39,192 bases of DNA from a bacterium (GTDB taxonomy: Bacteria; Electryoneota; RPQS01): assembly GCA_020846695.1 (NCBI GenBank), contig JADLDM010000168.1, positions 1 through 39,192 on the forward strand, given 5' to 3'. Positions 12,098-34,049 of this stretch are shown here, in pieces. The notes under the pieces are model-generated. The model did no database searches. It worked only from the letters and a program-made list of their open reading frames with translations, and was not told the DNA's origin. Within the stretch, counting starts at the first letter, position 1. Every line of letters starts with the position of its first letter. Position numbers and translations under genes: made by a program.

Positions 12098-12234
12098 CGG
12101 AGTCTCCTTTCTTGACTAACAGTTGAACGGAATTAGAAAAAACAGAACTCCCGTTCGCCCGGTGGATCCGTCGAGCCCGTGTTCCTCTGGAACATCGCAA
12201 AGTAATCTGGTCTTATTCTGATCATGTAGGTCTC

Positions 12235-12261
12235 GTGTAGCGGCTGCCCCCGTGGCTGCCG
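12235..12261. repeat. 27-nt dispersed hairpin repeat, copy 1
   Basis: GTGTAGCGGCTGCCCCCGTGGCTGCCGA; CGGC-T-GCC/GGC-T-GCCG imperfect hairpin. Confidence 0.7.
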
Positions 12262-12262
12262 A

Positions 12263-13075: not shown

Positions 13076-13093
13076 TTCTCGCGCCGAGCGCTA

Positions 13094-13121
13094 GTGTAGC
13101 GGCTGCCCCTGTGGCTGCCGA
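13094..13121. repeat. 27-nt dispersed hairpin repeat, copy 2
   Basis: GTGTAGCGGCTGCCCCTGTGGCTGCCGA. Confidence 0.7.
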
Positions 13122-14829: not shown

Positions 14830-14870
14830 CTTTCTGCTCCCTTAGATTTCAAAACACGTTGTCCGCTTGT

Positions 14871-14956
14871 CGCCGAGCGGGGATTAAGTGCGGCCAATAC
14901 TCTTTGCTCTCGCGCAGACTTTTGCTACCGCACGGTTCCCCGCCGGAATCTGAATC
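14871..14956 (-). ncRNA. Candidate structured element, copy A
   Basis: Minus strand: CCG GCGGGGA ACC GTGCGG ... CCGCAC TTAA TCCCCGC T CGG; covaries with copy B at 30708; orientation assigned by analogy to gene direction only. Confidence 0.5.
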
Positions 14957-16304
14957 AAAACCTGCAACTCACATTCACCACCATGTTCCGCCGATGCTCC
15001 TGCTCCGCGGGAAACTTCAAATCACCTTGCGCAAACAACGGCAGCGGATTCATTCCGAAATCAAAATCCAACCCGGCCTTCTGATTGCGCGTTCTTGCCG
15101 AGCGGCTTTCCATCGAATAGAACAGCGCAAAGCCCGCCGTCGCGCCCGCCGCCGCCGCAAGCGAATACGGCGCGGTCGTCTCAGGATTTGCCGCCACTAC
15201 AAATGAAGTGAACAATGCCGCCCCGCCGATCTCCCCCATCAAAATCATCAAGCCCTGCGATCTTGAAAACTCGCGATGCTTCAGCATGTGATGTCCGATT
15301 CCCAACGCAACAACAGAACCCGCCGTCGCGCCAACCGCCGCATCGCCGCCGTCCGCCTCCGCTGCATCCGCAAGCGCTGCCGGAATCGCCGCCCCCAAAA
15401 TTCCAATCGAGCGCAAAACAAAAGCGTCTCCGCGCGAATAATCCCCGTGATCCGCGAGCTGCTTGCCTGCAATGATTCCAATCGCGCTTCCCGCCGCGCA
15501 CCACGCGCCCGCTTCGGCGACCGTCTCTTCTTCATCCCAAAGATCATAGCCGCCGGTCAAAGAGGCCGACATCGCAATTCCAAAATCCCCGCCCACACCG
15601 ATCACCGAGGACTCCCCTTCACTCATCCGGCTCTTTTCGGCCCAGTAGTAGCCAAGCACGGATTCCGTGATGCTGAAGACCGAACCCCAACCATACGGCG
15701 CTTCATCGAATTGTTCCGTGCCATGGAACGCATAGTAAACGAATACTCCGTGCGCTATCCCGCGCGAGCCGCCGTAAAAATACATCTGCGCATCCGCGCG
15801 CGTCACATTCGCTCGATCCGTCGCAAGATACGGCACAAGCACGCCCGCTGCGCCAATCAAAAAGTATAACGCTCCCGCGCCGCTCCCCGTAGCCTGCGCC
15901 GCAACAGGTATCGCCCAACCGTGATACCCTAAACTCAAAATCGCGCTGTTCACCAGCATTCCCCCGCGCCCCGATTGATCAAATTCCGAAGCCGGTGAAT
16001 AGATATGAATCGCTTCAGTCACACGCCGCCGCAGGTGCTTCACTTCAGGCGGACGCATCTCAACTCTCGACCGATACGTATTCGTGTCGCCGTAGAGAAT
16101 CTCCAAAACAAAGAGCGTATCACTCTGCTGATAGAGCCGCGCTTCAACAAAACTCGGATAGTCCTGAAACAGCCCGAGCTTGTTTTCCAACTCACGGTCT
16201 ATCACCATCACCTTGCCCGCAGAATCAAGCGGAACCTGCATTTCCTGAGCAAATCCCCGGGCAAAACAGCAAAGCAATCCGAGAACAAAAATGCGCGCGG
16301 TCAT
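14955..16304 (-). CDS. Hypothetical exported/membrane protein
   Basis: Signal peptide-like MTARIFVLGLLCCFARGFAQ, then hydrophobic Gly/Ala-rich segments; family not recognised. Confidence 0.7.
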   Translation of the reverse strand: MTARIFVLGLLCCFARGFAQEMQVPLDSAGKVMVIDRELENKLGLFQDYPSFVEARLYQQSDTLFVLEILYGDTNTYRSRVEMRPPEVKHLRRRVTEAIHIYSPASEFDQSGRGGMLVNSAILSLGYHGWAIPVAAQATGSGAGALYFLIGAAGVLVPYLATDRANVTRADAQMYFYGGSRGIAHGVFVYYAFHGTEQFDEAPYGWGSVFSITESVLGYYWAEKSRMSEGESSVIGVGGDFGIAMSASLTGGYDLWDEEETVAEAGAWCAAGSAIGIIAGKQLADHGDYSRGDAFVLRSIGILGAAIPAALADAAEADGGDAAVGATAGSVVALGIGHHMLKHREFSRSQGLMILMGEIGGAALFTSFVVAANPETTAPYSLAAAAGATAGFALFYSMESRSARTRNQKAGLDFDFGMNPLPLFAQGDLKFPAEQEHRRNMVVNVSCRF

Positions 16305-16908: not shown

Positions 16909-16924
16909 GTGTGTGTTATCTTAT

Positions 16925-16951
16925 TGTAGCGGCTGCCCCTGTGGCTGCCGA
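16925..16951. repeat. 27-nt dispersed hairpin repeat, copy 3
   Basis: TGTAGCGGCTGCCCCTGTGGCTGCCGA, same as 13094 copy. Confidence 0.7.
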
Positions 16952-30628: not shown

Positions 30629-30647
30629 CGGGCCTCCGTGCAGAAAA

Positions 30648-30709
30648 ATCGAAAACTCAAAAACGAAAATCGAAAAGTCAGATTCAGAAGTCAGAAGTCA
30701 GAAGTCAGA
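30648..30709. repeat. Compound heptamer array (AATCGAA family joined to AAGTCAG family)
   Basis: AATCGAA AACTCAA AAACGAA AATCGAA AAGTCAG ATTCAG AAGTCAG AAGTCAG AAGTCAG. Confidence 0.75.
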
Positions 30710-30791
30710 CTCGGATTCCGGCAGGGAACCGCGCGAAGTTTCGTTGTTGAGCGCACTTCATTCGTCGGTCGCGCTTAATCCCTGCTCGGCG
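30708..30791 (+). ncRNA. Candidate structured element, copy B
   Basis: CCG GCAGGGA ACC GCGCGA ... TCGCGC TTAA TCCCTGC T CGG; covaries with copy A at 14871; strand uncertain. Confidence 0.5.
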
Positions 30792-30796
30792 GCTCC

Positions 30797-31997: not shown

Positions 31998-33986
31998 ATG
32001 CTTGCACTGCTTCTGTTGCTGTTCCCGCTTTCCCTGTTTGCCCAACCCGATACCCTCTGGTCCCGCAATTTTCTGCTGGGCGAGAGGTGCTACTTGCAGG
32101 ATGCCGTCCTGATGGATGACGGCACGGCCATCCTCGGAGGTTGGTCGGAAACCGGGTCAGGCTCGACACTCGATCAGGATTATATGCTGGCTGCGTATTC
32201 CGCGACCGGCGAATCGCTTTATGTGCGCTCCCACCTCGAAACCGAGGACGACGAGGCTATCGAGGGCTTAGTCCGGGGAGGGGGAGATACGCTCGCAGCC
32301 ATTGGCTGGTTCTTCAATGGCCGGGGGTGGAGCTTTCTGTTCTTCTCGGCGGATGACGGCGAACTGCTCTGGTCGCGCACCTATCAGCCGATCAATGCCG
32401 GACTGATGCGAGGCCGCGATATCACAAGGCTCACGGACGGAGGCTACGCCGCAACGGGCTACCGGCTTGGTGTGAATGGTATTTCGTCCGATATTTGGGT
32501 CTTCCGCACAGATTTCATGGGAGACACGCTGTGGACGCGGATGTTCGGAGGTGAAGGGACAGACGTCGGCACCTCAATCCGGCAGAAGGACAACGGCAAT
32601 CTCCTGATTACCGGGCAGACGCGCGCTTCCGGAGGGACGGAGTACGATGTGATCGCGCTGGAAGTTGACCTGCAAGGGAATCAGGTCGGAGCGGCCCAGA
32701 CGATCGGCACGCCCGATAACGACATTGTTTACAACCTGCTGCTTGATGCGGAGAATAACTGCCACGTGGTCGGACGCACCGCACTGGAGAGCGCGCTGCA
32801 AAGCTACGTCGTGATTCTGCCGACGACCGGCCAAACCTTCACGCGGCAGTATTTCCAGACGGGAATCGGCGAGCAATTTCGCGGCGGAATTCCGTGGTAT
32901 GGCGGAATGCTCTATGCCGGACGCTCCGGGATTTCCAGCAGTCAGACGCGCTTTTATATGCGGGCGGTGGACGTGGACGGAACGTCGCTCTGGACGTGGA
33001 ATTACGGCAATTTGGGAATTGACTGCGGCTACACGGGAATCCTCGCGCTGGAAGACGGAGGCGGATTGGCCTACGGACAGCGTTCTATTGCGCCTGATGT
33101 GAAGGGCTACATTCTGCGCTTTGCTCCGCCCGGAGGAGCGCAGGGTCACGTGACCGCCGACGTGTCGGGCTTGCCCGTCACCGGGGCGCACGTGCACAAA
33201 TTGGGAGACGCGAATTATGTGGTGACCGGTTCAACCGGTCTCTATCGCATCGAACTTGCGCCCGGCACGCATAGTCTGGTGGTGGAGAGCGACTGCATCG
33301 TGACCGACACTATTCACAACGTAGTGGTTCTGCCGAATGAACTGGCCACGGCGGATTTCGTCGTCGGGCAGGCGCTCTATGATCCGCTTCAATCTTCCGT
33401 CAATGTCATTGCCCGTAATCACGTCAGCTCATTGGGATTTCTGACGCTGGGCAATGCCGGGACCGGCGATCTACATTTTTCTGCTGAAGCCTCGTCCATC
33501 AGCCCGCCGGGCAACTGGATTTCCGTTTCGCCAAGCGAGGGAGTGATTACGGGGGAAAGCACGTTTGATCTGACGGTTTCAGTGCTGGCCGACACCACGG
33601 ACGACGGCATGTACGACTACACTGCGGAAATCACAGTGCATACCAATGCCTGCCCGGACACCTTGCTCACCTTTCCGGTGCTGATTTCCGTCCTGGATGT
33701 TCCTCGAAGCGACGTCCTGCCCGTGGAATTCAGGTTATCTCCGGCCTATCCCAATCCCTTCAACGGGATGACTTCCGTCACGCTGGAGCTGCCTGCGGAA
33801 ACAAGTGTGAAGGTTCGGTTGTTTAACTTGGAGGGGCAGTTGGTTTCGACGGTTTTGGAGGGGAATCTTTCGAGCGGTGAACACCGGCTGACGGTGGATA
33901 TGTCCAACCAAGCGACGGGAATCTACTGGCTTAGGGCGGAGACCCCGAGCAGCAATTCCGTGCAAAAGCTGGTGCTGGTCAGGTAG
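31998..33986 (+). CDS. Secreted propeller-like repeat protein with type IX-like C-terminal sorting domain
   Basis: Signal peptide; repeats GDTLWTRMFGGEGTDVGTSIRQKDNGNLLITG; C-terminal SPAYPNPFNGMTSVTLELP...GIYWLRAE. Confidence 0.88.
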   Translation: MLALLLLLFPLSLFAQPDTLWSRNFLLGERCYLQDAVLMDDGTAILGGWSETGSGSTLDQDYMLAAYSATGESLYVRSHLETEDDEAIEGLVRGGGDTLAAIGWFFNGRGWSFLFFSADDGELLWSRTYQPINAGLMRGRDITRLTDGGYAATGYRLGVNGISSDIWVFRTDFMGDTLWTRMFGGEGTDVGTSIRQKDNGNLLITGQTRASGGTEYDVIALEVDLQGNQVGAAQTIGTPDNDIVYNLLLDAENNCHVVGRTALESALQSYVVILPTTGQTFTRQYFQTGIGEQFRGGIPWYGGMLYAGRSGISSSQTRFYMRAVDVDGTSLWTWNYGNLGIDCGYTGILALEDGGGLAYGQRSIAPDVKGYILRFAPPGGAQGHVTADVSGLPVTGAHVHKLGDANYVVTGSTGLYRIELAPGTHSLVVESDCIVTDTIHNVVVLPNELATADFVVGQALYDPLQSSVNVIARNHVSSLGFLTLGNAGTGDLHFSAEASSISPPGNWISVSPSEGVITGESTFDLTVSVLADTTDDGMYDYTAEITVHTNACPDTLLTFPVLISVLDVPRSDVLPVEFRLSPAYPNPFNGMTSVTLELPAETSVKVRLFNLEGQLVSTVLEGNLSSGEHRLTVDMSNQATGIYWLRAETPSSNSVQKLVLVR

Positions 33987-33989
33987 AGA

Positions 33990-34017
33990 AATCGAAAATC
34001 GAAAACTGAAAATCGAA
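33990..34017. repeat. Phased heptamer repeat (AATCGAA family)
   Basis: AATCGAA AATCGAA AACTGAA AATCGAA, 3 nt after stop codon of the 31998 gene. Confidence 0.75.
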
Positions 34018-34049
34018 AAGACGGAGAAGCACTGGGGAAGGCAAAGCAC

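Follow-up and report, generated by a model that had tools for sequence, protein, structure and literature searches.

Covarying hairpins in an Electryoneota draft genome as probable REP-like elements of an atypical RAYT-associated family

Two covarying hairpins, copies A and B, in a 39,192-nucleotide stretch of bacterial DNA (the window) are very probably non-autonomous, REP-like palindromic DNA elements that belong to an atypical family of this order associated with RAYTs (REP-associated tyrosine transposases); we put the probability of this reading at roughly 0.86. The hairpins are thus most likely mobile satellites of a RAYT rather than a new RNA. Contig C172, which is the window, comes from a 2.5-Mb draft genome (G000) that comprises 215 contigs and is 81% complete. 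Both copies belong to the long-loop form of a sequence class that we call class I (defined below), and their parts are as follows.

14869..14950, minus strand: copy A, probable class I long-loop REP-like element (GATTCC...GCTCGGCGAC); covariance-model match of 79.6 bits, E 3.7e-17
14937..14946, minus strand: copy A outer stem, 5' arm CCGGCGGGGA; from the pairing/covariation test and RNAalifold
14873..14883, minus strand: copy A outer stem, 3' arm TCCCCGC(T)CGG, with the bulged T at 14876
14927..14933, minus strand: copy A inner stem, 5' arm GTGCGGT
14888..14894, minus strand: copy A inner stem, 3' arm GCCGCAC
14884..14887, minus strand: copy A asymmetric internal loop, conserved unpaired TTAA, opposite ACC at 14934-14936
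14895..14926, minus strand: copy A apical loop, variable
30714..30793, plus strand: copy B, probable class I long-loop REP-like element; covariance-model match of 76 bits, E 3.1e-16
30718..30727, plus strand: copy B outer stem, 5' arm CCGGCAGGGA; this outer stem is that of the palindromes flanking the RAYT of a relative, G001 (L238)
30779..30789, plus strand: copy B outer stem, 3' arm TCCCTGC(T)CGG, with the bulged T at 30786
30731..30737, plus strand: copy B inner stem, 5' arm GCGCGAA
30768..30774, plus strand: copy B inner stem, 3' arm GTCGCGC; the loop-proximal pair is unformed in copy B
30775..30778, plus strand: copy B internal loop, conserved unpaired TTAA

Both hairpins are present with the sequence given in the preliminary description, copy A on the minus strand and copy B on the plus strand, and the compensatory changes that it reported between them are real: in the outer stem a G-C pair in copy A (14941:14879) is an A-T pair in copy B (30723:30783), and in stem 2 a T-A pair becomes C-G and a G-C pair near the top becomes A-T. 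Its claim of a conserved flank holds in part, in that (A)GATTCC is kept outside the stem on that side across copies while GAYTCRGATTCC is not; on the opposite side of the stem a CG is conserved across copies (GCTCGGCG). Copy A had also been said to end within the stop codon region of the adjacent gene. We find that its core ends at 14950 and that only the looser flank reaches the TGA stop (14955-14957). Each of the two copies begins a few bases from a gene's stop codon. The pattern GGAACCN{20,50}TTAATCC has 2 matches in the window against 0.05 expected, and none of 100 shuffled sequences contains two. Folding energy was dropped as evidence, since copy B is barely better than its own shuffles (z of -0.4 as RNA and -0.9 as DNA); the case for the hairpins rests on covariation and copy number.

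Two further kinds of repeat occur in the window. AT-rich repeats (AAATCGAAAACTCAAAATCGAAAA, AGAAGTCAGAAGTCAGA) lie at gene ends (2445-2474, 30642-30695 and 33985-34025), one of them directly preceding copy B, and such a repeat also adjoins a class I copy at another locus of the genome (L003). Another REP-like palindrome, TGTAGCGGCTGCCCCYGTGGCTGCCGA, which has a GTAG-type head, is present in three copies (12232-12262, 13091-13121 and 16921-16951).

The hairpins have many counterparts in the same genome. A BLAST search with copy A returns 23 matches in its own genome, a wider split pattern returns 25 (against 0 in the reversed control), and a covariance model trained on 18 long copies of class I from this genome returns 54. 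The family falls into two classes, class I reading GGGGAACC and class II reading CGGGTTGC; the latter, a sister class with the stem CCGGGTT/AACCCGG (GATTTCGGCCGGGTTGCGC...GCTTAACCCGGCTCGGCG), accounts for 21 exact long matches in the genome. The two classes have their ends in common (GATTYCGG and, opposite, GCTCGGCG). In both, the outer stem measures ~10 bp and has a single bulged T in its 3' arm, and the inner stem has TTAA at its base; the conserved foot is CGCCGAGC and the 3' side is GGAATC. The apical loop comes in two forms, a long one (about 35 nt, variable), seen in copies A and B and in most copies of either class, and a short one (e.g. GGAACCGCAAAGCCTTAATCC), of which both classes also have examples. 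In class II the apical loop is near-constant (AGATTGGTGCAGTTGAATCAGG) and may have a role of its own, for example as a second protein site. One locus (L056, C44:9-66) is a chimera, class I in its left half and class II in its right, which looks like a fusion of two neighbouring elements.

Across the 18 long copies, RNAalifold independently gives the structure first proposed from the two window copies: an outer stem of 10 bp with one bulged T, an ACC/TTAA internal loop and an inner stem of 7 bp. In this alignment 96.4% of cells pair, both-sided changes occur at 4 of the 17 pairs, and the covariation score lies above all 500 shuffles and all slid controls. With copies added from two more genera (G008 and G004), 97.6% of cells pair and 5 pairs are doubly changed; in one of these, the topmost of the outer stem, A-T becomes T-A. 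A set of 16 mostly short elements from RAYT flanks and from elsewhere across the order shows A-T, C-G and G-C at one position and T-A and A-T at another; this set was chosen by hand and has one misaligned row, which makes it an illustration more than a test. The pairing was said at the outset to be open to refutation by a lack of further copies or by further copies whose arms do not covary; further copies exist, and their arms do covary.

Where do these copies sit relative to genes? We placed 51 copies of the host genome with a simple codon-usage gene caller, the positions being those of the loci retrieved. None of the 51 lies inside a predicted gene: 35 are between co-directional genes, 4 between convergent and 2 between divergent genes, and 10 are at contig edges. 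In the 35 co-directional gaps the hairpin is in the sense orientation 15 times and antisense 20 times, and hence we see no strand bias. This bears directly on the possibility that the hairpins are a structured RNA or a cis-acting mRNA element, such as a 3'-end stabiliser or a terminator, with their spread through the genome being secondary. Strong covariation is what such an element would show, both window copies begin near a stop codon, and REPs in general are often transcribed (PMC3733652). However, an RNA element would be expected to favour one strand, no U tract is present, a search of the window against Rfam 15 gives 0 matches at the gathering score, and like palindromes flank transposase genes in inverted orientation (see below). 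We consider this explanation very unlikely. Conservation of structure can be accounted for by RAYT recognition of single-stranded DNA hairpins. The preliminary description had offered both an undescribed structured RNA and a palindromic mobile or REP-like element; dispersal, intergenic position, the lack of strand bias and the inverted RAYT flanks of relatives support the second, whereas the first finds neither an Rfam match nor a strand preference behind it.

A different kind of mobile element, a MITE of an ordinary DDE transposon with the hairpin as its core, is suggested by at least three class I copies that lie within a unit of ~150 bp whose terminal inverted repeats are imperfect (GAGCCTATCTT.../...GATAGGTTC); two such units are inserted into another repeat and show what appears to be a 3-bp duplication. 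Yet the terminal repeats are absent from most of the 51 copies, A and B included, and the elements of relatives associate with RAYTs instead. This origin is less probable still than the RNA one, and a REP captured by a MITE is the better reading of the ~150-bp composite. Class I copies inside a MITE of ~150 bp with the inverted repeats GAGCCTATCTTAAAATAAGAG / CTATTTCGAGATAGGTTC are found at L023, L021 and L047 (on contigs C36, C200 and C207), with a half copy at C200:17651.

Now we consider the relatives, in which palindromes of this family bracket RAYT genes. The clearest case is G010, where elements at C2:314930 and C2:315491 enclose a Y1 transposase gene (C2:314978-315457) whose product of 161 aa is a RAYT by NCBIfam NF047646 (87.4 bits against a cut-off of 80). 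The gene starts ~9 bases past one class II element and stops 3 bases before the other; the two are inverted, GATTCC pointing to the gene. Farther upstream there is a third copy. The RAYT scores of the flanked genes by this model are 87.4 and 89.4 bits, and an assignment to the IS200 transposases was rejected (17.2 bits against that model's cut-off of 55). Proteins of this type carry the motifs (P)DHLH, Y-[MI]-H-x-NP and SS, with the tyrosine at Y122 and an NPVRRGLV consensus that fits NP(L/V)(R/K)xG, and the best solved relative of their profile is 4er8, TnpArep. Inverted RAYT flanks with GCTCGGC / GATTYCGG-like ends also occur in G001, G003, G005, G007, G009 and G011, and the flanks in G010, G009 and G005 are of class II. 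In G001 the flank reads ATTCCGGCAGGGA-AGGAA-TCCCTGCTCGGCGA, in which the outer stem and bulge are exactly those of copy B. Long loops are seen in the flanks of G003 and G007, which shows that RAYTs can be flanked by long-loop forms as well; among the flanks found, none is the exact class I long form. Several RAYTs of the clade are flanked by palindromes with other stems and feet. At a further locus (L231, G001:C3) a RAYT lies amid arrays of GGGGCACTTGAAGACAAGTGCCGCCAAG, another REP type in tandem arrays.

The RAYTs themselves form a coherent group. In a tree of 28 Y1 proteins those of this type are one clade (98/93), within which the two CCGGGTT-flanked RAYTs, L227 and L240, pair (99/93) and L224, flanked by TCGGGTT, joins them (91/78). 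RAYTs and their REPs coevolve as a rule (PMC2817692), and the agreement that we see here between RAYT clade and REP class is in line with such coevolution. A profile built from nine of these RAYTs has strong matches (E < 1e-37) only in genomes of the order, and outside it none stronger than about 1e-25.

The elements are similarly restricted. By a right-arm pattern, which finds mostly class II, 9 of 11 genomes of the same family (the host included) and both of 2 others of the same order are positive, that is 11 of 13 by pattern, and a twelfth has a variant; outside the order 0 of 48 genomes match, and the reversed controls give 0 throughout. The covariance model gives 15-77 matches in most relatives of the same order and 0 in seven genomes from other families of the phylum. 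A 16-base pattern scan of genome contigs produced many matches in unrelated genomes, which we set aside as chance because no palindrome surrounds them; the full element was confined to MAGs of this group. One relative, G006, has neither RAYT nor elements. Relatives also contain related palindromes whose stem is GGGCRCC/GGYGCC and whose foot is CTCGGC (L168, L287), which suggest a wider superfamily. There are also nested REPs, in which another REP type (CCAACACCC...GGGTGTTGGCTAG, or GGTGACTCTGGAGAGTCACC) lies within the apical loop (L280 and L290 in G009, L079 in G008).

REP elements usually, though not always, share a genome with their cognate RAYT. No RAYT of this clade is present in the host assembly, whose completeness is 81% and whose contigs break at these repeats, and the same combination of elements without such a RAYT is seen in G002. 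The host's only two RAYT-like genes carry other repeats, and we ruled out its own Y1 genes as the cognate enzyme because each comes with different palindromes (GTAGGGGCGGGTCCCCGACCCGCC and CTAGCCGCGACC...). These RAYT-like genes, L049 (G000:C197) and L050 (G000:C36), have palindromes of their own (CTAGCCGCGACCTCCCGGTCGCGG and GTAGGGGCGGGTCCCCGACCCGCC), which brings the REP families in the host genome to at least four. Either the class I and II copies of the host are orphans, or their RAYT belongs to the fifth of the genome that the assembly lacks; the latter is possible given that some copies lie close to the ends of contigs (C106, C165, C44).

A comparison of G010 with G006, a genome of the same genus, gives one filled and empty site. 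The gap between dnaK and clpB is ~840 bp in G010 and contains the RAYT with three hairpins, and in G006 it is 122 bp with no RAYT and no hairpins; the dnaK and clpB proteins of the two are 95% and 88% identical over the parts compared. This could be a gain in G010 or a loss in G006. Because movement of RAYT units as a whole is said not to occur (PMC6006769), this single site could also reflect a loss. For the window copies we established no direct empty site; the neighbours of copy A (yidB and a gene of 449 aa), which we compared with G006 and G010, are adjacent in both but in reversed order, and the junction is thus not homologous.

How do these elements compare with known systems? In a canonical REP the foot bears GTAG/GTGG and the loop spans 2-20 nt (PMC3733652, PMC6006769). 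Here the GTAG/GTGG tag is absent from the elements, whose foot is CGCCGAGC, and the apical loop of the long form, at about 35 nt, is beyond that range; for these two reasons we do not class them with the GTAG REPs. In other respects they resemble the GTAG REPs of E. coli, being imperfect palindromes with an internal mismatch (AA/GC in E. coli and TTAA/GGT here, in the same orientation) that are dispersed in intergenic copies and inverted around a RAYT gene (PMC6006769, PMC8266576). Class I written in the E. coli orientation is CGCCGAGC-stem-TTAA-stem-loop-stem-GGT-stem-GCCGGAATC, which puts the irregularity where E. coli REPs have AA/GC. The enzymes resemble group 2 (subclass 2.2) RAYT/TnpA_REP proteins of the E. 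coli type in DHLH, Y[MI]HxNP, SS and a length of ~160 aa, and differ from them next to the conserved W, which is mostly followed by R or Q and not E; judged by motifs in the protein sequence, they appear nearest to this subclass save for that residue.

Palindromes without GTAG are already known at RAYT-like genes. In the surroundings of subclass 2.6 / class 3 TnpA_Y1 genes, non-GTAG palindromes flank RAYT-like genes and have copies elsewhere in the genome (PMC6006769), as here, but the proteins of subclass 2.6 carry NH[LIV]H with a HuH-Y distance whose median is 82, where ours carry DHLH with a distance of about 60. TIRtrons/TIRYT (Di Nocera 2013, PMC3733652) likewise combine RAYT-like genes with dispersed families of non-GTAG inverted repeats, some of them self-complementary; GGGGWSAS, common to several though not all TIRYT repeats, is absent here, and the host phyla differ. 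The extrahelical T recalls the subterminal hairpins of IS200/IS605, where it is recognised by the Y1 HUH transposase, yet the flanked protein is below the IS200 cut-off and above that for RAYTs. We therefore take these elements to be a variant of the known kind of non-GTAG palindrome at RAYT-like genes (subclass 2.6, class 3, TIRtrons), and found no earlier description of these particular repeats in the literature searched.

The hairpin also has a superficial likeness to the folded attC-like sites of an integron-like tyrosine recombinase, with a box of 7-10 bp, an asymmetric spacer, a box of 6-7 bp and a variable loop. The RYYYAAC...GTTRRRY arrangement is nevertheless absent, AAC being on the wrong arm and the box order wrong on both strands. 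The copies are moreover dispersed among chromosomal genes with no cassette arrays, and the elements flank RAYTs. Of all the explanations weighed, this one we regard as extremely improbable.

Returning to the REP-like reading, we picture the following course of events. When the DNA is single-stranded, for example behind the replication fork, the hairpin would fold, and an HUH-tyrosine RAYT would bind it via the foot CGCCGAGC together with the bulged base, the irregularity of the internal loop and the GGAATC side. By analogy with the E. coli case (PMC8266576), the RAYT would then cut nearby and move or copy the hairpin into new intergenic sites. The stem must pair for this, while its letters would be free to drift along with the RAYT, and this would be why the arms of copies A and B covary. 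In the host the cognate RAYT would have been lost or left unassembled, with the copies persisting as satellites; where they lie in transcribed regions they may incidentally form mRNA hairpins downstream of genes. Whether these RAYTs form a distinct REP-RAYT lineage, which reads the CGCCGAGC foot, the extrahelical base and the GGAATC side in place of GTAG and tolerates or uses a long apical loop, is a more tentative proposal, one we hold to be plausible but somewhat short of even odds.

For the family, the outcome is that a covarying hairpin pair is explained as mobile-DNA satellites and should not become a new RNA family. If the recognition code truly differs, the order would supply more than 12 naturally occurring pairs of RAYT and REP in which the stem drifts and the foot stays constant, and such pairs would suit the study of how RAYTs read hairpins and of how enzyme and repeat coevolve.
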